Positions 3,892-13,844 of a DNA stretch of 64,000 bases are shown piece by piece. The stretch's first letter is position 1, and each line of letters opens with the position of its first letter. The position numbers and the translations under genes are program-made. The notes under the pieces are model-generated. The model worked only from the letters and a program-made list of their open reading frames with translations, was not told the DNA's origin and did not search any database. The stretch is taken from the NCBI GenBank assembly GCA_038736355.1, contig JAVYML010000002.1, forward strand, positions 62,001 to 126,000, read 5' to 3'. This stretch comes from Candidatus Hadarchaeales archaeon (GTDB taxonomy: Archaea; Hadarchaeota; Hadarchaeia; Hadarchaeales; WYZ-LMO6).

Positions 3892-3932
3892 CGGGAGTAG
3901 CATCCCCCTGCGAGGGGGTAAGGCTACTCCCG
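3892..3932. terminator. Perfect GC-rich hairpin between convergent nrdD and the cooC-like gene
   Basis: A perfect 10-bp inverted repeat (CGGGAGTAGC at 3892-3901 and its complement at 3923-3932) encloses a second stem (CCCCC 3904-3908 / GGGGG 3913-3917). It sits 20 bp after the nrdD stop and covers the stop codon of the opposing gene. It is not followed by a T tract, so termination is inferred from position; it may instead stabilise mRNA 3' ends on both strands. Confidence 0.5.
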
Positions 3933-4685
3933 ACCTCCCCCTCCAGGGAGGTATCCCATCCTCTTGAGCAACCCCTCCACGCCCAGCAGGGCAGGGCTGT
4001 TCCTCCGCAGGTGAAAGATGGTTAAACCTTTCCTGTCCAGTTCCTCCACCTCCGCATCCTGGGGCACAAGACCCAATACCTCCATTCCCCCGGGAAGCTC
4101 CACCCCTTCTCCCCCCACCACCTTGTTGAGGACCAGACCAGCCCTTTCATATCCCACCGCCCCCCTATCCGCCACTTCCTTGATGATCGAAGCCACCCTC
4201 AGGGACTTGGGGGAGGAATCCGAAACGAGTAGGAGATCGTTGACTTCCCTCATCACCCTCCTGTTGATCTGCTCCACTCCCGCTTCCCCATCTATTACCA
4301 CCACTTCAAAACCCTTGGAAACCGAGGTGAGGACCTCCCTCAGGAATTCGTTTACCTTACAGTAACACCCTTCTTCTTCAGGTCTCCCCATGGCCAGCAG
4401 GGCAAAACCCCTTCCCTCCTCCATGATCTTCATTACCCCGTAGTCGAGGGAAAGGGCCAGCTCCTCCCTGCTCAACCCCCTCCAAGAGGAGAGCCATTCC
4501 TTCCTCAGATCTTCCACCGTTTTCCCAGTCCTCACTCCCAAGGCCTGAGAAAGGCCTGAAGACGGGTCCGCATCCACCGCCAGGATTTTCTTCCATCCCC
4601 CCTCCACCAGCAACCTCACCGAGGCTGAGGCCAAGAAGGTCTTTCCCACTCCTCCCTTTCCGCAAAAGGCCATCACCCTCGTCAT
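3924..4685 (-). CDS. CooC/AcsF-type nickel-insertion ATPase
   Basis: 253-residue P-loop ATPase of the MinD/ParA class. It has the deviant Walker A KGGVGKT at residues 10-16 and the family Cys-x-Cys (C107, C109) in MGRPEEEGCYC, which in CooC proteins holds Ni at the dimer interface. CooC/AcsF proteins mature the nickel clusters of CO dehydrogenase and acetyl-CoA synthase (family knowledge). Its ATG overlaps the TGA of the upstream ACS-like gene (ATGA), so the two are probably coupled. The natural inference is that it loads a metal into a partner encoded in this operon. Family assignment is firm; the client is unknown. Confidence 0.88.
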   Translation of the reverse strand: MTRVMAFCGKGGVGKTFLASASVRLLVEGGWKKILAVDADPSSGLSQALGVRTGKTVEDLRKEWLSSWRGLSREELALSLDYGVMKIMEEGRGFALLAMGRPEEEGCYCKVNEFLREVLTSVSKGFEVVVIDGEAGVEQINRRVMREVNDLLLVSDSSPKSLRVASIIKEVADRGAVGYERAGLVLNKVVGGEGVELPGGMEVLGLVPQDAEVEELDRKGLTIFHLRRNSPALLGVEGLLKRMGYLPGGGGRE

Positions 4686-5386
4686 CCCTTCCCCACCATC
4701 CTTTCCCTTATCGCCCTGAGCTCTTCCACGCTCCCGCAGATTTCCCTGTAGTCACACCTTTCACAGTCCAGGGAAACCTCTTCCACCATTTTGCCTATGG
4801 CCGAGGCAATCTTCCTGGCTTTCTCCCCTATCCCGAGTAGCGAACTCACCCCTTCTTCGGAGGTGGAGAAAACCACCTCCACGGAAGAAACGGGAAGGGA
4901 GCGCAGGGCCCTCCTCAGGGCCTCCCCCACCACGGAGAGGGAGAAGCCCCTCTCCACCACCTGCCTGCTCACCCTGCTCCAGACCCTCATCTGCGAGGGA
5001 AGACCCCTTATCGTGTATCCCTTGAGGACCATCCTGAAGGGCACCAAGTTCAGCTTCCGGTAGTCTTCATCCCTTATCTCCCTGGATTCCACCAAACAAA
5101 GCTGGGCAAAGGGCACTTCTCCCCTCAGCTCCGGAAGATCTTTCCCCCAAAGGCTCACCCTCCCATCCTCCACCAGTCCAGGTGTTTCGGTGAGGAGGAC
5201 GGAAGAAAAGGAGGGAAGCTCGGGAGGACCCAGTTCCACCCAAGTGTCCTCCTTGAGGATCACCTCTGGACCTTCTCCCAGGAACTCCTCCGGAAGGAAA
5301 GGGGAGAGCCTCCTCACCTTTCCTTCCCCCTCAGCTTTTTCCAAGAGGCCGCGCAGGAACTTCAGGTCCTCATCGAAAAGCTTCAT
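4682..5386 (-). CDS. Truncated acetyl-CoA synthase (CdhC/AcsB)-like protein
   Basis: 234 residues, recalling the middle region of the acetyl-CoA synthase beta subunit. Residues 47-100 (DTWVELGPP...VEDGRVSLWGKDL...PFAQLCLVE) match the VELGGPK...VEDGKI...GPDI...YPFGI stretch of CdhC. Residues 133-185 (MRVWSRVSRQVVERGFSL...VEVVFSTSEE) match its VWIRISKDAVEKGF...VQVTLYT. It stops where the A-cluster domain should begin and instead carries C208, C211, C217 (CxxCx5C). The full A-cluster ligand set of genuine ACS is therefore absent. It overlaps the activase gene by 17 nt and the CooC-like gene by 4 nt. It may be a small Fe-S/metal scaffold rather than an acetyl-CoA synthase. The homology is by eye. 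Confidence 0.7.
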   Translation of the reverse strand: MKLFDEDLKFLRGLLEKAEGEGKVRRLSPFLPEEFLGEGPEVILKEDTWVELGPPELPSFSSVLLTETPGLVEDGRVSLWGKDLPELRGEVPFAQLCLVESREIRDEDYRKLNLVPFRMVLKGYTIRGLPSQMRVWSRVSRQVVERGFSLSVVGEALRRALRSLPVSSVEVVFSTSEEGVSSLLGIGEKARKIASAIGKMVEEVSLDCERCDYREICGSVEELRAIRERMVGKG

Positions 5387-6155
5387 CCGCCTTCTCCCGT
5401 GCGAAGAGACAGGCCCCGTAGGCCCCTGCCAGGATGGGATCGAAGGGCAACCTCTTCACCTTCCTCCCCAGCTGTTCCTCTAAGGCCTCCACGAAACTCT
5501 TCAGCCTGCTCACCCCTCCCGCCACCACTATCTCCCCCCTCATCCCCACCCTCCTGACTATGGAGGAAACCCTGCCGGCAATGGCCCTCGTGACCGCAGC
5601 CAGAATGTCCTGAACTTCCTCCCCCTCGTTCAAAAGGGCTATCACCTCGCTCTCCGCAAACACCGTACACTGGGAGGTGATGGAGAGTCTTTTGGTGGAA
5701 CGGGCAACCTCCTCATCCCACCTCTCGAGGCTCACCCCCAGCACCTCCCCGAGCATCTCCAAGAACCTCCCCGCCCCAGCCGCGCACCTGTCGTTCGTCC
5801 CATAATCAACTATCCTACCCCTCTCCATCACCGCCACCCTCGTGGTATTGGCCCCTACCTCCACCAACGTTCCAGTCTCCGGGAGCAAGGGGGCGCAGGC
5901 TTTGGAAAGGCAGAGGAGGATGGGCTTGACTTCCCCCACGAAATCCAAGCCCCTCACCCTCTCTCCAGTCCCCACCCAGCAGGTTACTTCTTCCCTTTTC
6001 CTTCCAGCCCTTTCCAAAACCTCCCTCAGGATCCTTTCAGCCGTTTCCTTGGCCTTTGGACCGGTTTCCAGGACGGCTTGAGCCACCATCGAACCGTTCT
6101 CCATAAGAACTGCCTTCACCCTTCCGCTACCGATATCCAGTCCACCCACCAACAT
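5370..6155 (-). CDS. ASKHA-family reductase activase, divergent second copy (BcrA/BcrD/HgdC-like)
   Basis: 261-residue ATPase related to the activator of 2-hydroxyacyl-CoA dehydratases and the ATPase subunits of benzoyl-CoA reductase. It has an N-terminal phosphate loop (GLDIGSGRVKAVL) and both Cys that hold the dimer-bridging [4Fe-4S] cluster: C124 in NDRCAAGAGRFLE and C163 in SQCTVFAESEV. The usual IDIGGQDxK motif reads VEVGANTTRV, and the usual SEIxxHxxGA motif is degenerate. ATP binding may therefore differ from its partner. The start is the ATG at 6155, overlapping the upstream TGA; the longer open frame upstream is a shadow of the neighbour. Two unequal activases recall BcrA+BcrD. Confidence 0.85.
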   Translation of the reverse strand: MLVGGLDIGSGRVKAVLMENGSMVAQAVLETGPKAKETAERILREVLERAGRKREEVTCWVGTGERVRGLDFVGEVKPILLCLSKACAPLLPETGTLVEVGANTTRVAVMERGRIVDYGTNDRCAAGAGRFLEMLGEVLGVSLERWDEEVARSTKRLSITSQCTVFAESEVIALLNEGEEVQDILAAVTRAIAGRVSSIVRRVGMRGEIVVAGGVSRLKSFVEALEEQLGRKVKRLPFDPILAGAYGACLFAREKADEAFR

Positions 6156-6937
6156 CAGTTTCCCCCCACCCTCTCGCTGGCGAAGAGGGCCGCACCGAGA
6201 GCGCCCACCAGCTGGGGATCGAAATCCAGCTTGATGAGCGGGACTCCAAGCATTTCTTCCAGGTACTTCACCACGCCTATGTTCTTCGCCACGCCTCCCG
6301 AGAGGACCACCTCCCTCTCCACCCCCACCCTGGAAGCCAGTGCCTTCACCCTTGCTGCCATTGACTGGTTCACACCGGCTGCCACATCTTCGGCACTTGC
6401 CCCTTCCGCCAAGTAGGAGAGGACCTCTGACTGCGCGTAAACCGCACAAATGTTGGTGATGGGTATGGGCTCCTTGGAGGAGAGGGAAAGCCTCCCCAGG
6501 TCTTCCACTCCCACTCCGAGTGTCTTGGCCATGAGTTCCAAGAACCTTCCCGTCCCGGCGGCACACTTATCGTTCATGACGAAGTTCACCAGTCTTCCCT
6601 CCCCATCCACCCTTATCACCTTGCAGTCTTGCCCACCGATGTCTATCACCGTCCTCACGGAAGGGAGGAGCCAGTGGGCCCCCTTCCCATGACAGGAGAT
6701 CTCGGAAATGTTCTCGTTGGCGAAGGGAATCCTCACCCTCCCGTAACCCGTCCCCACGCAGTATGCCACCTCCTCCCACCTTCTTCCCGCCTTCCTCAGA
6801 GCCTCTTCCATCACCTCCCTGGCCGAAAGCTCTGGTCTGGGTCTCACCCTTCTCACCTCATGGGAGAGGATGCGCCCGTTCTCCATCAAAAGGGCTTTGG
6901 CAGTAAGGGAACCCACGTCGCAGCCGGCCACCAGCAT
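6155..6937 (-). CDS. ASKHA-family reductase activase, canonical copy (HgdC/BcrD-like)
   Basis: 260-residue ATPase with all family motifs: CDVGSLTAKAL phosphate loop, ISEISCHGKGAH, IDIGGQDCK (98-106), NDKCAAGTGRFLE (C125) and TNICAVYAQSEV (C164), then GGVAKN and a C-terminal GALGAALFA. Such proteins form homo- or heterodimers around one [4Fe-4S] cluster. They use ATP hydrolysis to push an electron at very low potential onto a double-cubane or dehydratase partner (family knowledge). Its start lies 1 nt from the stop of the HgdA/BcrB-like gene, so the operon encodes reductase and activator together. Confidence 0.92.
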   Translation of the reverse strand: MLVAGCDVGSLTAKALLMENGRILSHEVRRVRPRPELSAREVMEEALRKAGRRWEEVAYCVGTGYGRVRIPFANENISEISCHGKGAHWLLPSVRTVIDIGGQDCKVIRVDGEGRLVNFVMNDKCAAGTGRFLELMAKTLGVGVEDLGRLSLSSKEPIPITNICAVYAQSEVLSYLAEGASAEDVAAGVNQSMAARVKALASRVGVEREVVLSGGVAKNIGVVKYLEEMLGVPLIKLDFDPQLVGALGAALFASERVGGN

Positions 6938-6938
6938 G

Positions 6939-8315
6939 CTAACCCAGTCCCATCGTCTCGTTGAACTCTAAAATCCTGCGTTTGATTTCAGAAACCGGAC
7001 TAACCCTGAAGTCCCAGCAATCGGCCTCTATTTTCAGACAGGGAAGACCCGTCTCCTTCTGTAGCGCCCTTATAAAGGCTTGGAAACCCCCCCACACATT
7101 CTTACAGGCTGGATGACCCGCAAAAACAAAACAGTCCCCTCCCCACTGCTCCACGCACCAAAGGTAGTCCTCAAGCCACTGTTCCGGGTAATCCATGGGT
7201 CCTCTCTGTTGCCTGGTCATGGGATAATTCCAGCACCTCTGCGCCAATCCCTCGAGCATGGTATCCAAGGAGGAAGTATCGATGGGTCTCTCAGCGTGGA
7301 AGAGGGTCAGGATATCCACCACGTAGCTCATCCCATTCTCTTCCAGCCAGAACCAAAGATCCATGCTCGGAGAGTAGAAGCCCGTGTACACCCAAATCTG
7401 TCTAATGCGCTCCTCTGGTTTGGCCCCTTCCCTCCTCCTCAGCCTGTCCTTGGAGGCCTCCAACACCGTTTCGAAGAGCTTGGTCCCCTGGGGGGTTCCC
7501 ACCGAGCTGAACTTCACGGCCTGCAAGAAGATGTTGAAACAGGAGTGGACGGGATTGGGGCGGGCCCTCTTCAGATCATTGATCTCCAGATAACACCTCC
7601 TGCACTTCTCGCTTTCCTCTACCACCTCCCTCAACCTCTCCTCCTCCAGCTTCCTTCCCGCGAACTCCTCCAGTTTCCTCACTTGGTGCCTGTACTCCTT
7701 TAGGTAATACCGGAAGGCCCTTTCTCCATGATAGGTAGGGCAGTCTATTCCCAGATAGGGAACACCCAACCTAACAGCCATGTATTCGTAGAGCTTGGAA
7801 TTGGCATCACAGCTTCCCGGGGCAGCGGTGACCACTAGGTCCGGGCGGAGACCGAGGCCCTTCAGGATGGCCCCACAGGCTGCCCTCTGCGAGGTGCACA
7901 TGGTCTCGAGCAATCCCTCCTCCACACTCCAGTCGAAGTACACGTGCGGATCTTCCAAGAAGATGGTGGCAAAGGAGGTGAGCACCTCCGGCACCAGTGG
8001 GACTAGGTCCAGTGCGTATAGAACTTCGGGAGCGGTGTTGAAGCTGGAGAGCACCACCTTCTTCCCCTCCTCCTTCGCTCCCCTCACCATCCCCAAGTAC
8101 CAGCCGGCCCACCTGGATACCTCCATGGCCACCCTCCGGATGGCAGGATCGGAGAGGAAGAGGTGTCTCAGGACCTCGGCCTGGGAGGGAACGGCCGCTA
8201 CCAGGTCTTCCAGCTCCCTCTCCGTCACATCCTCTGGGATGGAGGAAGCTAGGGAAAGAAGGGTAAAGAGTCTCTCCTCGAGCGGCAGCTGCCTAGCCTC
8301 TTCCAACCCTCTCAC
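6939..8315 (-). CDS. 2-hydroxyacyl-CoA dehydratase/benzoyl-CoA reductase family subunit (HgdA/BcrB-like)
   Basis: 458 residues of the HgdB/FldBC/BcrBC superfamily. Family features are the N-terminal APEVLYALDLVPLVPE segment, PGSCDANSKLYEYMA, a GIDCPTYHGE segment, the late GHPACKNVWGG and a C-terminal EADCWDFRVSP...IKRRILEF. Partner subunits of this family bind [4Fe-4S] clusters and reduce or dehydrate CoA esters, or reduce small molecules (double-cubane proteins). The GTG start at 8315 gives a 23-nt overlap with the small upstream gene; a TTG at 8306 is possible. The substrate cannot be read from sequence. Confidence 0.85.
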   Translation of the reverse strand: MRGLEEARQLPLEERLFTLLSLASSIPEDVTERELEDLVAAVPSQAEVLRHLFLSDPAIRRVAMEVSRWAGWYLGMVRGAKEEGKKVVLSSFNTAPEVLYALDLVPLVPEVLTSFATIFLEDPHVYFDWSVEEGLLETMCTSQRAACGAILKGLGLRPDLVVTAAPGSCDANSKLYEYMAVRLGVPYLGIDCPTYHGERAFRYYLKEYRHQVRKLEEFAGRKLEEERLREVVEESEKCRRCYLEINDLKRARPNPVHSCFNIFLQAVKFSSVGTPQGTKLFETVLEASKDRLRRREGAKPEERIRQIWVYTGFYSPSMDLWFWLEENGMSYVVDILTLFHAERPIDTSSLDTMLEGLAQRCWNYPMTRQQRGPMDYPEQWLEDYLWCVEQWGGDCFVFAGHPACKNVWGGFQAFIRALQKETGLPCLKIEADCWDFRVSPVSEIKRRILEFNETMGLG

Positions 8316-8628
8316 CCTTCTCGGCGAGCTTCCTTATTTCCCTCTCCTCCAGCCTTGGGCGGAGGTAGACCGCATATCCCCCCTGGGTCCTCTCCACCAT
8401 CACCTTCCACCCTCCCCTCTCCCCCTCCTCCCTCTCCGACTGGCCCTTCACCACCCGATGCAGCATCTCCTCCATCCCCTCCAAGAGTTCCTTGGGAAGC
8501 CTGGGCCTGAAATCGGGACAGAGTCTCAGGCTGGCGGGGTTCTCCTCGGCCCCCTTCAGCTGGCAACTTATCCTCTCCCACCCTTCCCATCTCGCCCAGA
8601 AACAGTCCTCGCATCTCACGGGACTCAT
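8293..8628 (-). CDS. Small Cys-containing protein of the reductase operon, unknown function
   Basis: 111 residues; I do not recognise the family. The N-terminal third has four Cys (CEDC, ISC, RLCPDF; residues 6, 9, 22 and 37), suitable for a zinc or Fe-S site. The rest is charged, with an RGGWKVMVERTQGGYAVYL beta-like stretch. Its ATG overlaps the TGA of the HgdB-like gene (ATGA) and its end overlaps the HgdA-like gene by 23 nt. It is therefore almost certainly translated with both reductase subunits and may be an accessory subunit or electron-transfer adaptor (inference). Confidence 0.75.
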   Translation of the reverse strand: MSPVRCEDCFWARWEGWERISCQLKGAEENPASLRLCPDFRPRLPKELLEGMEEMLHRVVKGQSEREEGERGGWKVMVERTQGGYAVYLRPRLEEREIRKLAEKGERVGRG

Positions 8629-9767
8629 TTTCCCAGCCTCTCCAAGAAGGCCTGGACCCTAGTCCTGATCCTTCCCACCTCCGCCAGCGGGCCGTACTGC
8701 CTCTCCAAGAGCAGGGTGGGCACTCCCTCTTCCTCCAGCCTCCTGGCGAAGAGGGTGTTGTCCCCTCCGTGCGTGTCGCAGAACTTCATGTGTTCCAGGA
8801 TCACCCCTTCCACTCTCCATTCCTTGATCAACCTCCTCAAAAAGCTGAGCTTCCTTTCGAATTCCCCGTAGGTCCTGGCACAGGGCATGTGATAGTAGTA
8901 CCTCCTGACCAAAGCCTCGAAGGGATCACCCCTTTCCTCCACCAGATCCACGATGGACCTCATGCCAAAGCAGAGGGAGTCCGTGACCACCAGACCTCCC
9001 TGCCCCTCTATCACCCTCACCAGCTCCGGATCATCGTTCACACTCCCCACGAGCATAAGTCTGGCTCCCGAATGCTCCTTTCCCCTTTCCTCTATTTCTT
9101 CAAGGGCTTCCTCCAGCAGACGGTTGTAAACCTCCCTCCTCATAGCCGTGCTCGCCACATGAATGGCTAAGGCCTCCTGCCCGGAAATGAGGGGCTTCTC
9201 CTTCTTTCTCTTCTCGTTCAGCTCCAGCAAGAGCCTCCTCCCCCTGTTGTACTCCCTTACGGCCTCCTCCAGCCTCTCCCCCTCGAGCTTCGTCCCGAAG
9301 TGTCTCTCCATGGCACCCAAAAGGGAGGAGATCTCCTCCCGGTAGAACTCCAGCCCATGCTCCGTGAGGGTGTGGGGAATCCCGAAGTAGTAGAAGAAGG
9401 GAGGGAGATTCCCTGCGGCCTTCCAGCAGTCGTACATCCTCCTCATGTGGTCACAGGTGCGGGAAATCACGGCCCCGTCCAGAAAGCCGTACCTCCCCTC
9501 CAGCACCAGCTGCAGGCAGCAACGTGTGTAGCTACAGTTGACGGGACCGTACCAGGCATCAGCCAGGTGGGTCCCGGAGCATCCCGTCCCCCTTATCCTG
9601 AAGGGAAGCATGCCCAGAGCATGGACTAGTTCCTCCGGGAAGTAGCTGCAGGTATAGCCTATGACCCTTCCTCCCTCCCTTTTCCACCCCTCCACATGGG
9701 GATTGGAAATTCCAGAAGAGACCTGCACCAGAGTTTCGAAACTCCTCACTGAAAAAGGTTGGGCCAC
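8625..9767 (-). CDS. 2-hydroxyacyl-CoA dehydratase/BcrC/double-cubane-like subunit, operon leader
   Basis: 380 residues with the family pattern YTCSYFPEELVHALGMLPFRI (C40), a Cys-rich middle (C63, C78, C83, C84), SRTCDHMRRMYDCW (C105, C114), the late KFCDTHGGDN and a C-terminal IRTRVQAFLERL. This is the subunit type that holds the reducing Fe-S cluster in BcrC, FldC and double-cubane proteins. The number of Cys exceeds the three ligands of a plain dehydratase, so a double cubane is possible. The start shown is GTG 9767. GTG 9749 sits about 24 nt from the TATA-like palindrome centre and would give a leaderless mRNA, so it is the likelier true start. Confidence 0.87.
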   Translation of the reverse strand: MAQPFSVRSFETLVQVSSGISNPHVEGWKREGGRVIGYTCSYFPEELVHALGMLPFRIRGTGCSGTHLADAWYGPVNCSYTRCCLQLVLEGRYGFLDGAVISRTCDHMRRMYDCWKAAGNLPPFFYYFGIPHTLTEHGLEFYREEISSLLGAMERHFGTKLEGERLEEAVREYNRGRRLLLELNEKRKKEKPLISGQEALAIHVASTAMRREVYNRLLEEALEEIEERGKEHSGARLMLVGSVNDDPELVRVIEGQGGLVVTDSLCFGMRSIVDLVEERGDPFEALVRRYYYHMPCARTYGEFERKLSFLRRLIKEWRVEGVILEHMKFCDTHGGDNTLFARRLEEEGVPTLLLERQYGPLAEVGRIRTRVQAFLERLGK

Positions 9768-9779
9768 AAACTTAAGTTT
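9768..9779. promoter_or_regulatory. Palindromic TATA-like element shared by two divergent operons
   Basis: A perfect 12-bp palindrome, AAACTTAAGTTT, followed by a T run. It lies 24 nt (centre to start) from GTG 9749 on the minus strand and 33 nt from ATG 9806 on the plus strand, both suitable for an archaeal TATA box. One element may thus drive the reductase operon and the RuBisCO-like operon, or serve as an operator between them. Confidence 0.55.
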
Positions 9780-9805
9780 TTTTGGTGAGGGGGAAAAGAA
9801 GAAAG

Positions 9806-11002
9806 ATGGGGGACAAAAAAGTGGTGGTCCTGGGCGGCGGTGGGGTGGTAGGGAGAACCGCCGTGAAGGACCTGGCCAAGAGCGGGACCTTCTCCGAGGT
9901 GGTGGTGGCCGACAAGGAGGTGGAAAAGGCCAGAAGATACCTGGAGGGAATCCCGCACCTCTCCTTCGTGAAAACGGACATCACGGAGCTTGCCACCCTC
10001 CGGGAGGTGATAAAGGAAGCGGATGTGGTGCTCAACACCGTGGGACCCTTCTACAAGTTCGGCCCCCTCCTCACCAGGGAAGCCATCCGAGCGGGGGTGA
10101 ACTACGTGGATATCTGTGACGACTACGAAGCCACACTGGAGCAGCTGGAGATGGACGAAGAAGCCAGGAAGAAAGGGGTGACCGTCCTCACGGGGATGGG
10201 TTCTTCGCCCGGCGTGTCCAACGTGGTGGCCAAGTTCTGCTGCCAGCTCTTGGACCAGCCGGAGGAGATCCACATCTACCACATCCACGGGGGGGAGCCC
10301 GATGAAGGTCCCGCGGTGATCTACCACCGCATCCACTACATGGTGGGAAAGATTCCCATGCTCAGGGAAGGAAAAATGGTGTATTTCGGGTTCTTCAGCG
10401 AAGAAGGGGAGAAGGAAATAGAGGAAGTGGACTTTTACGATCCCATCGGGGTGGTGAAGGTTTATCCCTATCCCCATCCAGAAACCATCACCCTTCCCCG
10501 CCATATCCCAGGCCTAAAAAAGGTGACCAACAAGGGAGCCGTCCTCCCCCTGGAATATTACGAGCTGCTACGAAACGCCGTGAGGATGGGATTGGCCGAG
10601 GAAAAACCGTTGAAGGTGGGGGAAGCTTTGGTGGCCCCCATCGATTTCCTAGTTTCCTTCATCCTCTCCAAGAGGAAGGAATATGCAAGCAGGCTGCCCG
10701 AACCCGTGGGCTGTCTGAAGATAGTGGTGAGGGGGAAGAAGGAGGGGAAGAGGATGGAGTATAGGTTCGCCACGCCTTCGAGGGGGGCAGGGATGGGGGA
10801 AGGAACGGCCATCCCCGCCTCGGTGGGCACGCAGATGGTGGCCAGGGGAGAGATCGAGGAAAAGGGAGTTCTTCCCCCGGAGGCCTGCGTGGATCCCATG
10901 AGATTCTTCGAGGCGGTGAGGAGCAGGGAGGGAATGGGAGGGGTAAGGATCATCTTCGAGGGCGTTGACGAGGAAGGAAGAGTGACCAGCATACCCCTCT
11001 AA
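9806..11002 (+). CDS. Saccharopine dehydrogenase-family oxidoreductase
   Basis: About 398 residues with an N-terminal Rossmann dinucleotide-binding fold (VVVLGGGGVVGRTAVKDLAKSG), then DVVLNTVGPFYKFG, NYVDICDDYE and GMGSSPGVSNVVAKF, all typical of the saccharopine dehydrogenase/lysine-6-dehydrogenase superfamily. The substrate is not identifiable. ATG 9806 was chosen over TTG 9782 because of its distance to the upstream TATA-like palindrome. It is the first gene of a plus-strand set with a RuBisCO-like protein (35 nt downstream) and a sugar kinase, so it may oxidise an intermediate of a sugar or sugar-acid pathway rather than lysine (inference). Confidence 0.8.
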   Translation: MGDKKVVVLGGGGVVGRTAVKDLAKSGTFSEVVVADKEVEKARRYLEGIPHLSFVKTDITELATLREVIKEADVVLNTVGPFYKFGPLLTREAIRAGVNYVDICDDYEATLEQLEMDEEARKKGVTVLTGMGSSPGVSNVVAKFCCQLLDQPEEIHIYHIHGGEPDEGPAVIYHRIHYMVGKIPMLREGKMVYFGFFSEEGEKEIEEVDFYDPIGVVKVYPYPHPETITLPRHIPGLKKVTNKGAVLPLEYYELLRNAVRMGLAEEKPLKVGEALVAPIDFLVSFILSKRKEYASRLPEPVGCLKIVVRGKKEGKRMEYRFATPSRGAGMGEGTAIPASVGTQMVARGEIEEKGVLPPEACVDPMRFFEAVRSREGMGGVRIIFEGVDEEGRVTSIPL

Positions 11003-11037
11003 CAAGCCTTTTTTCCCCCAAAGAGCACCTCTTTTGA

Positions 11038-12336
11038 ATGTTCAAATGGAGGGAAAGGGAATACGAGGAACTGGAGGCCCAGCCCGAAGCCCTCCCTGAA
11101 GGGGTAGACCCGGAAGAATATGTCATTGCCACCTACTTCCTCTCCCTACCCTCTGCCCTGGATCCCTGGGAAGTGGCCAGGGCCCTAGCCATAGAACAGA
11201 GCACCGGCACCTGGGTACCCGTTCCCGGGGAAACCCCGGAGGTGAGGAAGAAGCATGTGGCGAAGGTAGTCGGAGTATACGAAACTCCCTTCCCGGAAGT
11301 GCTGGCCCCCACAGAGACCAAAGAAAGGAATTACATCGTGCAAATCGCCTTTCCACAGGTAAATTTTGGAAAGCAGATCCCCATGCTCCTTTCAACCGTG
11401 GCTGGAAACCTCATGTGCTGGGAGAAGATCAAGCTCCTCGACCTCCGTTTTCCCAAGAGCTTCGTGGAGGGTTTCAAGGGGCCCAAGTTCGGGATAGAGG
11501 GAATAAGGAAGCTTCTGGGGGTAAAGGAGAGGCCCCTGATCAACAACATGATCAAACCCTGCACGGGCTTCACCCCTGAGGTGGGCGCCAGGCTGGCCTA
11601 CGAGGCCGCGGTGGGAGGGGTGGACATGATCAAGGATGATGAACTGCTGGGCAATCCCTCCTTCAACCCCATCGAAGAAAGGGTCCCGAAGTACATGGAG
11701 GCCCTGGAAAGGGCCGACAGGGAGAAGGGGGAGAAGACCCTCTATACCGTCAACATCACGGATGAAGCCTCCAAGGTGCTGGAGAACGCCGACAGGGCCC
11801 TGGAGCTCGGAGCCAACGCCCTTATGATCAATTACCTCACCGCCGGAATCTCCCTCCTCAGGGAGCTGGCCGAAGATCCCAGCATCAACGTCCCCATCCT
11901 GGCCCACATGGACTTTTCTGGTACCATGTACGTCTCCCCCTACTCGGGTCTCTCCTCCTCCCTCCTGCTCGGGAAACTCCCCAGGCTGGCGGGAGCCGAC
12001 ATAGTGGTCTATCCCGCCCCCTACGGGAAGGCCCCCTTCATGAAGGAGAGATACGTGAGGGTGGCCCATCACCTGACCTTCCCCTTCTACCACCTCCGTC
12101 CCACCTTTCCCATGCCGAGCGGTGGGATCACCCCCTCCATGGTTCCCGAAGTGGTGAGTGACCTGGGAAGGGATGTGGTGATAGGAACGGGGGGTGGGAT
12201 CCACGCCCATCCGATGGGACCCAGGGCGGGAGCTAGGGCCTTCAGACTCGCGGTGGAAGCGGTGATGAAGGGGATAAGCCTGCAGGAGATGGCCAAAGAA
12301 CATGAGGAACTCAGGATAGCCCTCCAGATGGGTTAG
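11038..12336 (+). CDS. RuBisCO-like protein (form IV type)
   Basis: 432 residues of the RuBisCO large-subunit fold. The metal-binding triad is intact (K199, D201, E202 in VDMIKDDE, equal to spinach K201/D203/E204). Also kept are K173 (K175), H290 (H294), loop-6 K331 (K334), S361 (S379) and the GGG phosphate loop near 385. Carboxylase residues are replaced: K177 is C175, R295 is M291, H298 is S294 and H327 is Y325. It should therefore enolise a phosphorylated substrate but not fix CO2 on RuBP. Known relatives act in methionine salvage and in apiose/isoapionate catabolism. The adjacent sugar kinase favours a phosphorylated sugar or sugar-acid substrate (inference). Confidence 0.85.
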   Translation: MFKWREREYEELEAQPEALPEGVDPEEYVIATYFLSLPSALDPWEVARALAIEQSTGTWVPVPGETPEVRKKHVAKVVGVYETPFPEVLAPTETKERNYIVQIAFPQVNFGKQIPMLLSTVAGNLMCWEKIKLLDLRFPKSFVEGFKGPKFGIEGIRKLLGVKERPLINNMIKPCTGFTPEVGARLAYEAAVGGVDMIKDDELLGNPSFNPIEERVPKYMEALERADREKGEKTLYTVNITDEASKVLENADRALELGANALMINYLTAGISLLRELAEDPSINVPILAHMDFSGTMYVSPYSGLSSSLLLGKLPRLAGADIVVYPAPYGKAPFMKERYVRVAHHLTFPFYHLRPTFPMPSGGITPSMVPEVVSDLGRDVVIGTGGGIHAHPMGPRAGARAFRLAVEAVMKGISLQEMAKEHEELRIALQMG

Positions 12337-12344
12337 GGGATTCT

Positions 12345-13844
12345 TTGGGATACATCCTAGCACACGATCTCGGGACGGAACTGAACAAGGCCGCCTTGGT
12401 GGATGAGGAGGGGAGGATAACGGTCTACTGTACCCAAGAATACTCCGTTTCCTACCCCAGACCCGGATGGGCGGAGCAGGATCCGGAAGTCTGGTGGAAG
12501 GCCGTCAGGGAAACCACGAGGAGGGTTCTGGAGCTCGCCGGAATAAAACCTGAAGAAGTGGAGGCCCTGGTCTTCGACAGCATGATGTACACGCTGGTGG
12601 CGGTGGATGAGGAGGGCAGACCCCTAAGACCCGCCATCCTCTGGATGGACACTAGGGCCAAGGCCCAGGCCGAGGAGCTGATGGGAAGATTGGATCTGCT
12701 CGGCATGCTGGAGAGGGGTGTGATCCCCCCCACTTCCGCCAAAGACATCACACCTAAGATTCTTTGGATAAAGCAGGAGGAACCCGAGATCTTCGAAAGG
12801 GCCCGTTTCATAGACAGCAAGGACTACCTGGTACACAAGTGCGTGGGTGAGTTCTACACCGACTGGAGCTGTGCCAGCCTCTTCTGCCTTTTCAACTTCA
12901 GGGAGAAGGAATGGGAAAAGGAGCTGGTGGAGGAAATGGGCCTCTCGGTGGAGAGGCTCTCCAAACCGGTGAGGAGCACGGAGGTGGTGGGGAACCTCAC
13001 GGAGAGGGCCTCCAGGGAGTTGGGATTGCCGAGGAAGGTGGAGGTGGTGTGCGGATCCGGGGATGCCACCGCCGTGGCGGTGGGGGCGGGAGGTCCCCAT
13101 CTCTACATCGGCACCTCCGCCTGGATAGGGGCCCACGTGGAGGAGCCCCTCTTCGACCTCACGGGAGTGGGAAGCATCTGCTCCGCAGATCCCTCAAAGT
13201 TTTTCCTCATAGGGGAAATGGAGAATGCCGGGGCCTGTCTCAAGTGGTTCAGGGAAAACCTAGCCAAGGAGGAAAGGGAAAGGGCGGAAAGGGAGGGAAA
13301 GGGTCCCTACCAGCTCTTGGATGAGCTCGCAGCAAGGGTGGAGGCGGGATCCGAGAAGCTCCTCTTCCTTCCTTGGATGATGGGGGAGAGATGTCCCTTC
13401 ACGCAATCCACCGCAAGGGGGGCCTTCCTCAACCTCACCTTCGGGCATACCAAAGGGCACCTGATAAGGGCGATCATGGAAGGAGTGGCCTACCACATGA
13501 GGTGGATCCTGGAGGTGGTGGAGGGGATGGGTCTCTCCCTTCCCTCCCTCAGGGCCTGCGGCGGGGGGGCCAAGAGTGAGGTCTGGCTCCAGATCTTCGC
13601 CGATGTGATGGGAAAGAGGGTGGAAAGGATTTCCTTCCCCCACCACGTGGGCTCCGTAGGGGCTGCCACGATAGCCAGGGTAGGACTGGGGAAGACGGAT
13701 TTCCCCTCCGCCGAAAAATCCGTGAAGGTGGAAAGGGAGTTCCTCCCCTCCGAAGAAAAAAGGGAAATCTACGACAGGATGTACGAGGAGTTCAAAGGGA
13801 TGCAGGGAAGACTCTCGGAAGTCTTCGAACGTCTCAACACCTAG
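12345..13844 (+). CDS. FGGY-family carbohydrate kinase (xylulokinase-like)
   Basis: 499 residues. The N-terminal ASKHA phosphate loop reads AHDLGTELNKAALVDEEG, followed by GWAEQDPEVWW, the ILWMDTRA segment, GSGDATAVAVGAG and RACGGGAKSEVWLQI, the standard order for FGGY kinases of 480-520 residues. It phosphorylates a sugar or polyol with ATP. The start is TTG 12345, supported by an AGGGGA ribosome-binding site at 12335-12340 that overlaps the stop of the RuBisCO-like gene. Its product is plausibly the substrate or precursor used by that neighbour. The stop overlaps the archease stop in CTAG. Confidence 0.87.
   Translation: MGYILAHDLGTELNKAALVDEEGRITVYCTQEYSVSYPRPGWAEQDPEVWWKAVRETTRRVLELAGIKPEEVEALVFDSMMYTLVAVDEEGRPLRPAILWMDTRAKAQAEELMGRLDLLGMLERGVIPPTSAKDITPKILWIKQEEPEIFERARFIDSKDYLVHKCVGEFYTDWSCASLFCLFNFREKEWEKELVEEMGLSVERLSKPVRSTEVVGNLTERASRELGLPRKVEVVCGSGDATAVAVGAGGPHLYIGTSAWIGAHVEEPLFDLTGVGSICSADPSKFFLIGEMENAGACLKWFRENLAKEERERAEREGKGPYQLLDELAARVEAGSEKLLFLPWMMGERCPFTQSTARGAFLNLTFGHTKGHLIRAIMEGVAYHMRWILEVVEGMGLSLPSLRACGGGAKSEVWLQIFADVMGKRVERISFPHHVGSVGAATIARVGLGKTDFPSAEKSVKVEREFLPSEEKREIYDRMYEEFKGMQGRLSEVFERLNT

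Follow-up and report, generated by a model that had tools for sequence, protein, structure and literature searches.

To our knowledge, few functions of RuBisCO-like proteins (RLPs) have been established. Here we analyzed a 64,000-nucleotide stretch of DNA (the window) from Candidatus Hadarchaeales archaeon (assembly GCA_038736355.1, contig JAVYML010000002.1, positions 62,001-126,000), in which an RLP gene lies between the genes for a saccharopine-dehydrogenase-like (SDH-like) oxidoreductase and an FGGY-family carbohydrate kinase. By comparison with described RLP systems, we propose that this trio is an operon for a catabolic module that resembles the known RLP sugar-acid pathways and is built from other parts; in our judgment the scheme in full has about an even chance of being right.

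Described RLP systems and the archaeal trio

The RLPs of the apiose pathway, in the account of Carter et al. 2018 given in PMC6302742 and PMC10176493, decarboxylate or transcarboxylate/hydrolyze 3-oxo-isoapionate-4-phosphate. As at the window locus, these D-apionate RLPs (the 3-oxo-isoapionate-4-phosphate decarboxylase OiaX and the transcarboxylase/hydrolase) have a kinase gene adjoining or near and a dehydrogenase gene nearby, and like the window RLP they possess Lys334, Lys175 and the KDDE motif (residues here and below are in RuBisCO numbering, read from alignment columns). They act after a kinase, and the same order of steps is proposed for the window RLP. On the other hand, they belong to another clade (about 30–36% identity), the window RLP lacks Arg295 and His327, and the partners differ: the apionate kinase is of the DUF1537 family whereas that of the window is an FGGY kinase, and the window dehydrogenase is SDH-like. 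As for an OiaX-type operon, the annotated neighbors of the trio included no DUF1537 kinase or other apionate gene.

MtnW (YkrW clade), the 2,3-diketo-5-methylthiopentyl-1-phosphate (DK-MTP-1-P) enolase of Bacillus-type methionine salvage, is the nearest characterized relative (39–41% identity), and it too lacks Arg295 and His327. However, it falls in a separate clade, and its Lys98, its loop-6 Ser and a Gly correspond to Asn, Lys and Glu60 in the window RLP. The DeepYkr RLPs (Rhodospirillum rubrum; Rhodopseudomonas palustris RLP1), which are 5-methylthioribulose-1-phosphate (MTRu-1-P) 1,3-isomerases, use the product of MtnA and have a cupin methylsulfurylase as operon partner (PMC5893883), where the window has a kinase; MtnA, the maker of their substrate, is present in the source genome. 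The D-hamamelose RLP, which Kim et al. 2018 as related in PMC10176493 and PMC8914248 place amid sugar-assimilation genes and describe as an oxygenase, is likened to the window RLP by description only, through these neighbors and a phosphorylated intermediate. Archaeal form III RuBisCO has the same fold and occurs in other members of the same order, one of which (L008) carries it instead of an RLP (match to 6hun, 1.3e-157). In contrast, form III is missing from the source genome, as is a ribose-1,5-bisphosphate (R15P) isomerase, and the window RLP lacks the residues of the second RuBisCO phosphate site.

A literature search found no paper joining an RLP with an FGGY kinase or a saccharopine dehydrogenase. 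That an RLP can work with a kinase and a dehydrogenase was known; new here is a distinct archaeal RLP clade with unrelated kinase and dehydrogenase partners. The three genes lie head to tail:

9806-11002, plus strand: SDH-like NAD(P) oxidoreductase, which opens the trio; 398 aa when read from its ATG (a TTG at 9782 may be used instead)
11038-12336, plus strand: RLP, 432 aa, of an archaeal form IV clade (Pfam, NCBIfam and trees)
12345-13844, plus strand: carbohydrate kinase of the FGGY family, 499 aa, beginning with TTG 8 nt past the RLP stop

An earlier reading of this DNA (the original prediction) had described the same trio at 9806-13844, and the open reading frames and Pfam domains agree with it.

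The RLP belongs to a separate archaeal clade

The RLP matched both RuBisCO large-chain domains above cut-off (RuBisCO_large PF00016, 1.8e-51, and RuBisCO_large_N PF02788). Because of these two domains, the KDDE motif and its position in trees, it is a member of the RuBisCO superfamily, of form IV in the broad sense and outside forms I–III. MtnW was its best NCBIfam and PDB match, though under the NCBIfam cut-offs (NF007095, 381.8 against 409; TIGR03332, 338.8 against 513.6). Also under cut-off were the scores with the form III model TIGR03326 (285.4 against 497.5) and the OiaX model (194.6 against 700), and 3qfw, which we assume may be R. palustris RLP1, gave 129 bits only. An AlphaFold2 model (predicted local distance difference test (pLDDT) 85.8) showed the RuBisCO fold, with MtnW 2oek and 2oem as the best PDB folds (template modeling score 0.87–0.88).

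Two maximum-likelihood trees, with 51 and 57 sequences and without the R. rubrum (DeepYkr) group, R. palustris RLP1 and the Archaeoglobus fulgidus RLP, placed the protein inside an all-archaeal clade of 16 members (bootstrap 99%; support 99/96 and 99/98, respectively). MtnW and the Alicyclobacillus RLP 4nas formed a clade of their own (100/100), apart from the archaeal one. With moderate support (93/91 and 95/79), the archaeal clade was sister to MtnW plus bacterial RLPs of Synergistaceae, Bacillota and Anaerolineaceae; the alternative of grouping it with MtnW without the bacterial RLPs was not rejected (p 0.085). Joining it with OiaX was rejected by the approximately unbiased test (p 7.6e-11), and on this result and the OiaX model score we discarded an OiaX assignment. 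The phylogenetic check that the original prediction had suggested therefore puts the RLP outside both MtnW and OiaX, and its remark that the trio matches no recognized RLP system holds among the systems compared.

L093 and L095–L099 (genomes G383, G050, G130, G090, G318 and G182) carry a second group of archaeal RLPs, which share about 50% identity with that of the window. At several of these loci a gene for a GlcF/TfrB-like Fe-S protein adjoins the RLP or lies near it, and at some there is a GlcD-like FAD enzyme. Arg295, His327 and Lys334 are retained in this group and H298 is Phe; these proteins are possibly glycolate-forming RLPs.

The active site appears to hold one phosphate

RuBisCO binds the 1-phosphate of its substrate at the P1 site (Thr65, Trp66, Lys334 and glycines 381, 403 and 404) and the 5-phosphate at the P2 site (Arg295 and His327), and its Lys201 is carbamylated. 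All 16 archaeal RLPs retain Glu60, Asn123, Lys175, Lys201-Asp202-Asp203-Glu204 (KDDE), His294, Lys334, Ser379 and Gly381, and in all 16 Cys, Met and Val stand in place of Lys177, Arg295 and His327, respectively. The P1 residues Thr65, Trp66, Gly381, Gly403 and Gly404 are likewise retained in the clade, with single exceptions in two members. Since P1 is kept and both P2 residues are replaced, the site should hold a single phosphate. Position 98 of the MtnW 2oek chain, a Lys in the Asn123 column that is reportedly the catalytic base (work of Imker, 2007), aligns with Asn in 16 of the 16 archaeal RLPs. In the Lys334 column of loop 6, MtnW has Ser and the window RLP has Lys; of the alignment rows checked, those of carboxylating, OiaX and DUF1537-linked proteins have this Lys, save for one aberrant row (L047), and the enolase MtnW lacks it.

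The joint presence of Glu60, Asn123, Lys175, Lys201 and Lys334 is what one would expect of a genuine carboxylase acting on a monophosphorylated ketose, in which case the module would fix CO2. We consider this extremely improbable, as Lys177 and the P2 residues Arg295 and His327 are replaced. In addition, the only IF-2B-family protein of the genome is MtnA, so there is no R15P isomerase to supply ribulose-1,5-bisphosphate (RuBP). A RuBP carboxylase in an AMP pathway was discarded for the loss of P2 and for the missing isomerase. The RLP is the sole RuBisCO-family gene of the source genome (1.27 Mb, 95.8% complete); no other RuBisCO was found there.

Methionine salvage is improbable

A role in methionine or 5'-deoxyadenosine salvage would make the RLP an MTRu-1-P isomerase of the DeepYkr type or a DK-MTP-1-P enolase of the MtnW type. 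It is favored by the closeness of MtnW, by the presence in the genome of a class II aldolase and of MtnA, which scored 360.5 bits against a cut-off of 279, and by the use of the MtnA product in DeepYkr systems (PMC5893883). However, the RLP scored under both MtnW cut-offs, and Asn and Lys stand in place of the MtnW Lys98 and loop-6 Ser. Family searches of the genome gave no MtnB above cut-off (its sole class II aldolase reached 75 with the MtnB model, against 137), and a targeted family search found no MtnD (acireductone dioxygenase). We know of no salvage route that includes an FGGY kinase and an SDH. Moreover, MtnA and the class II aldolase could by analogy suffice, without the RLP, for an anaerobic dihydroxyacetone phosphate shunt of the MtnA plus class II aldolase kind (PMC5893883). 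We therefore think salvage improbable, and an MtnW assignment was discarded on the NCBIfam scores, the separate clade, the Lys98 replacement and the state of MtnB and MtnD. The original prediction would have given way to a place inside a known clade with matching pathway genes elsewhere in the genome; the RLP falls within neither MtnW nor OiaX, and the genome has neither MtnB above cut-off nor MtnD. Its statement that the neighborhood is free of aldolase and salvage genes was borne out, as the annotated neighbors of the trio included none and none was recognized elsewhere in the window.

The three genes co-occur in archaea

We surveyed 394 archaeal genomes, counting SDH matches above 200 bits and FGGY matches above 400 bits as strong. 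The RLP clade was present in 14 genomes. A strong SDH occurred in nine and a strong FGGY in nine, and in each case eight of the nine were among the 14 with the RLP (hypergeometric probability 2e-12 by genome; 2e-8 and 1e-6 by family). The lone exception, G362, has SDH and FGGY without the RLP and belongs to the same family as the RLP-bearing G279. At the survey thresholds all three genes were missing from a genome of the same genus (G002), one of the same family (G003) and two of family f40 (G276 and G099), while all three were present in the genomes from which L033 and L034 come. In the RLP-bearing archaea the SDH orthologues are 46–49% identical to the window protein and the kinase orthologues 41–50%; the FGGY proteins of G208, G374 and G326 form a more distant subfamily (33–36%).

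In a same-genus relative the trio order is identical (protein identities 94, 90 and 90%). In G225, G190, G208 and G079, which all belong to one other archaeal family, a stretch of about 10 kb holds SDH, FGGY and RLP in varying order and orientation, and in G326 and UBA186 SDH adjoins FGGY away from the RLP. The rearranged linkage outweighs the conserved order as functional evidence, because relatives may simply inherit order. Since the order is kept in the genus and the linkage recurs rearranged in another archaeal family, the trio is a conserved module, beyond chance. Chance neighbors without a common pathway would fit the loss of the order outside the genus and the six RLP-clade genomes without a strong SDH. 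Set against the co-occurrence by genome and by family and the repeated rearranged linkage, this explanation is very unlikely. The neighborhood survey that the original prediction had proposed thus fits its notion of a pathway.

In family f40, genes for formate-tetrahydrofolate ligase (Fhs), FolD and an FtcD/FchA fusion lie beside the RLP (L087:9283-13426 and L086:10445-11380). This may be local synteny or a one-carbon link; it was seen nowhere else, and we took it for the former.

The kinase and the dehydrogenase

The kinase contains FGGY_N and FGGY_C above the Pfam cut-offs and was under cut-off with the NCBIfam XylB model (329 against 380). The catalytic Asp is present, and the GQMH of the xylulose pocket (Met77-His78) reads SMMY, His78 being replaced. 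It is thus an FGGY kinase whose score and pocket residues are not those of a xylulokinase. An FGGY paralogue (34–38%) is encoded, unlinked, on contig C1 of the source genome beside a GlcD-like FAD oxidase (L105:6643-8076), and the same contig carries an unlinked SDH paralogue (36–39%; L106:8551-9747).

The SDH-like protein is a member of the saccharopine dehydrogenase superfamily (Sacchrp_dh_NADP PF03435, 69.5 bits, and Sacchrp_dh_C PF16653, 40.5 bits, both above cut-off). No NCBIfam model scored above cut-off, that for carboxynorspermidine synthase / saccharopine dehydrogenase giving 29.4 against 800. The nearest PDB structures were 4ina, 8deb and 3abi. The second strand ends with Asp36, which would point to NAD(H) as the cofactor. 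Its chemistry cannot be read off from its relatives, because their DPG motif is SPG in the window protein.

Carboxyspermidine, lysine and saccharopine dehydrogenases, which all act on C-N bonds, are the enzymes of solved structure nearest to it by sequence and fold, at about 20% identity. They favor a pathway derived from amines or amino acids, in which an SDH-like amine dehydrogenase would deaminate a hydroxylated amine or amino acid, with an aminotransferase substituting for it in some archaea, and the kinase and RLP would process the keto product. Class III or histidinol-phosphate-type aminotransferases do adjoin FGGY or RLP at L033, L034, L082, L109–L111 and L118. However, the close class III type (55–56%) was restricted to UBA186 and two genomes of f111, and for this reason we discarded it as a constant partner of the trio. 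UBA186 and G362 also carry SDH, so the aminotransferase is no clean replacement, and the SDH structure model, built from three sequences only, is weak (pLDDT 64). The altered SPG motif is a further point against this reading. Taken together, we regard entry through an amine as unlikely, less so than salvage.

RLPs and kinases are paired repeatedly in bacteria

Among 12 plasmid RLPs on the OiaX side of the tree, a count that omits the photo-type RLP of Thiodictyon, 11 are directly followed by a four-carbon-acid-sugar kinase (DUF1537) (L076, L077, L079 and L125–L132), usually with a dehydrogenase nearby. The twelfth, Agrobacterium OiaX, is preceded by two aldo/keto reductase genes and lies about 6.6 kb from its DUF1537 kinase. 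Three bacterial relatives of the window RLP (L035, L036 and L038) have an FGGY kinase directly upstream that is 24–26% identical to the window kinase; these Bacillota and Synergistaceae pairings (L036:1311-5131, L038:7167-11233 and L035:4696-7573) are independent of that in the window. The pairing of RLP and kinase has thus come about repeatedly, and this repetition supports an RLP that acts after a kinase.

Two further bacterial loci, L037 and L039, are sugar-transport loci with ribose-5-phosphate-isomerase-like and triosephosphate-isomerase-like enzymes. Genes for a ribose-type ABC transporter and for lactonase-like, UPF0261, RpiB-like, TIM-like and class II aldolase proteins were recognized there (L037:4662-11254 and L039:2107-8332). 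The ribose-5-phosphate-isomerase-like enzyme resembles D-erythrulose-4-phosphate isomerase, at a score of 146 where the cut-off is 240, and the loci look like a catabolic cluster for a tetrose or branched sugar.

Gene layout and expression signals

Two short elements lie at the borders of the genes:

12334-12347, plus strand: RLP stop, G-rich ribosome-binding-like stretch and kinase TTG start (from sequence)
9768-9805: divergent intergenic stretch of 38 nt between a 2-hydroxyacyl-CoA dehydratase gene (start 9767, minus strand) and the trio

The spacing between SDH and RLP is 35 nt, and the three genes are proposed to form one operon. The RLP stop at 12334-12336 reads GGTTAGGGGATTCTTTG, and the G-rich run overlaps it. 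As the kinase TTG follows 8 nt on, translational coupling of RLP and kinase is plausible, although the Shine-Dalgarno match ahead of the TTG is modest; the overlap reported in the original prediction was confirmed, and the coupling that it asserted is weakened to this extent. The 38-nt stretch is the probable promoter region. It contains a perfect 12-nt palindrome, AAACTTAAGTTT, at 9768-9779, which is absent from the same-genus relative.

At its 3' end the trio is overlapped by an archease gene on the opposite strand, and a Thi4 gene is also present in the window; these and other genes there identify the DNA as archaeal. Upstream, a minus-strand operon (3924-9767) encodes 2-hydroxyacyl-CoA dehydratase-type subunits, two activase-like ATPases, a weak CdhC-like protein and a CooC-like ATPase. 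A link between the trio and the dehydratase operon (6155-9767) was dropped, as among the relatives read it adjoins the trio only in this genus.

A proposed pathway

We propose that the NAD(P)-linked SDH-like enzyme would yield a carbonyl compound, which the FGGY kinase would phosphorylate. The RLP would then bind the single phosphate at the RuBisCO P1 site and enolize the substrate on Mg2+ held by the carbamylated Lys. Because of the analogy with the apiose RLPs and the retained carboxyl-handling residues, it would most probably remove or cleave the carboxylated part, as a 3-oxo-acid-phosphate decarboxylase or carbon-carbon hydrolase, and a small sugar phosphate would enter central metabolism. 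The order of the steps, with the kinase before the RLP, the single phosphate and the decarboxylation or cleavage are all inferred. The pathway is probably carbohydrate-breaking. A sugar or sugar-acid substrate is suggested by analogy with the RLP and DUF1537-kinase operons and the bacterial RLP loci with sugar genes. Of the uncharacterized sugar or sugar-acid pathway named in the original prediction, the uncharacterized pathway is thus upheld by the conserved co-occurrence, whereas the sugar or sugar acid does not go beyond this analogy.

Several observations weigh against the proposed scheme. The bit thresholds of the co-occurrence counts were picked after the scores were seen, and six RLP-clade genomes (G279, G374, G259, G242, G293 and G119) have no SDH above 200 bits; one of them, G374, is 88% complete. 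The pocket residues vary among the trio kinases (SMMY, GMMF, TQMM, SQWS and AQMI), so these kinases may not share one substrate across lineages. The superfamily relatives found for SDH mostly act on C-N bonds, and their chemistry leaves amine entry a serious rival. Finally, no transporter, aldolase or regulator is linked to the trio in the window.

We also raise, more tentatively than the scheme above, the idea that this archaeal clade represents a new functional class among RLPs. It would catalyze an undescribed reaction, whether decarboxylation, C-C cleavage or even carboxylation, on a substrate with a single phosphate, and an SDH-type dehydrogenase and an FGGY kinase would serve it in a pathway common to several deep archaeal lineages and possibly entered from an amine. 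The active site of the clade is intermediate between MtnW and the carboxylating forms, with the loop-6 Lys, Glu60 and Asn123 retained and apparently one phosphate site, and the diversity of RLPs bears on the origin of RuBisCO itself. As the trio is conserved in several uncultured archaeal lineages, the function of one trio could apply to the whole clade.

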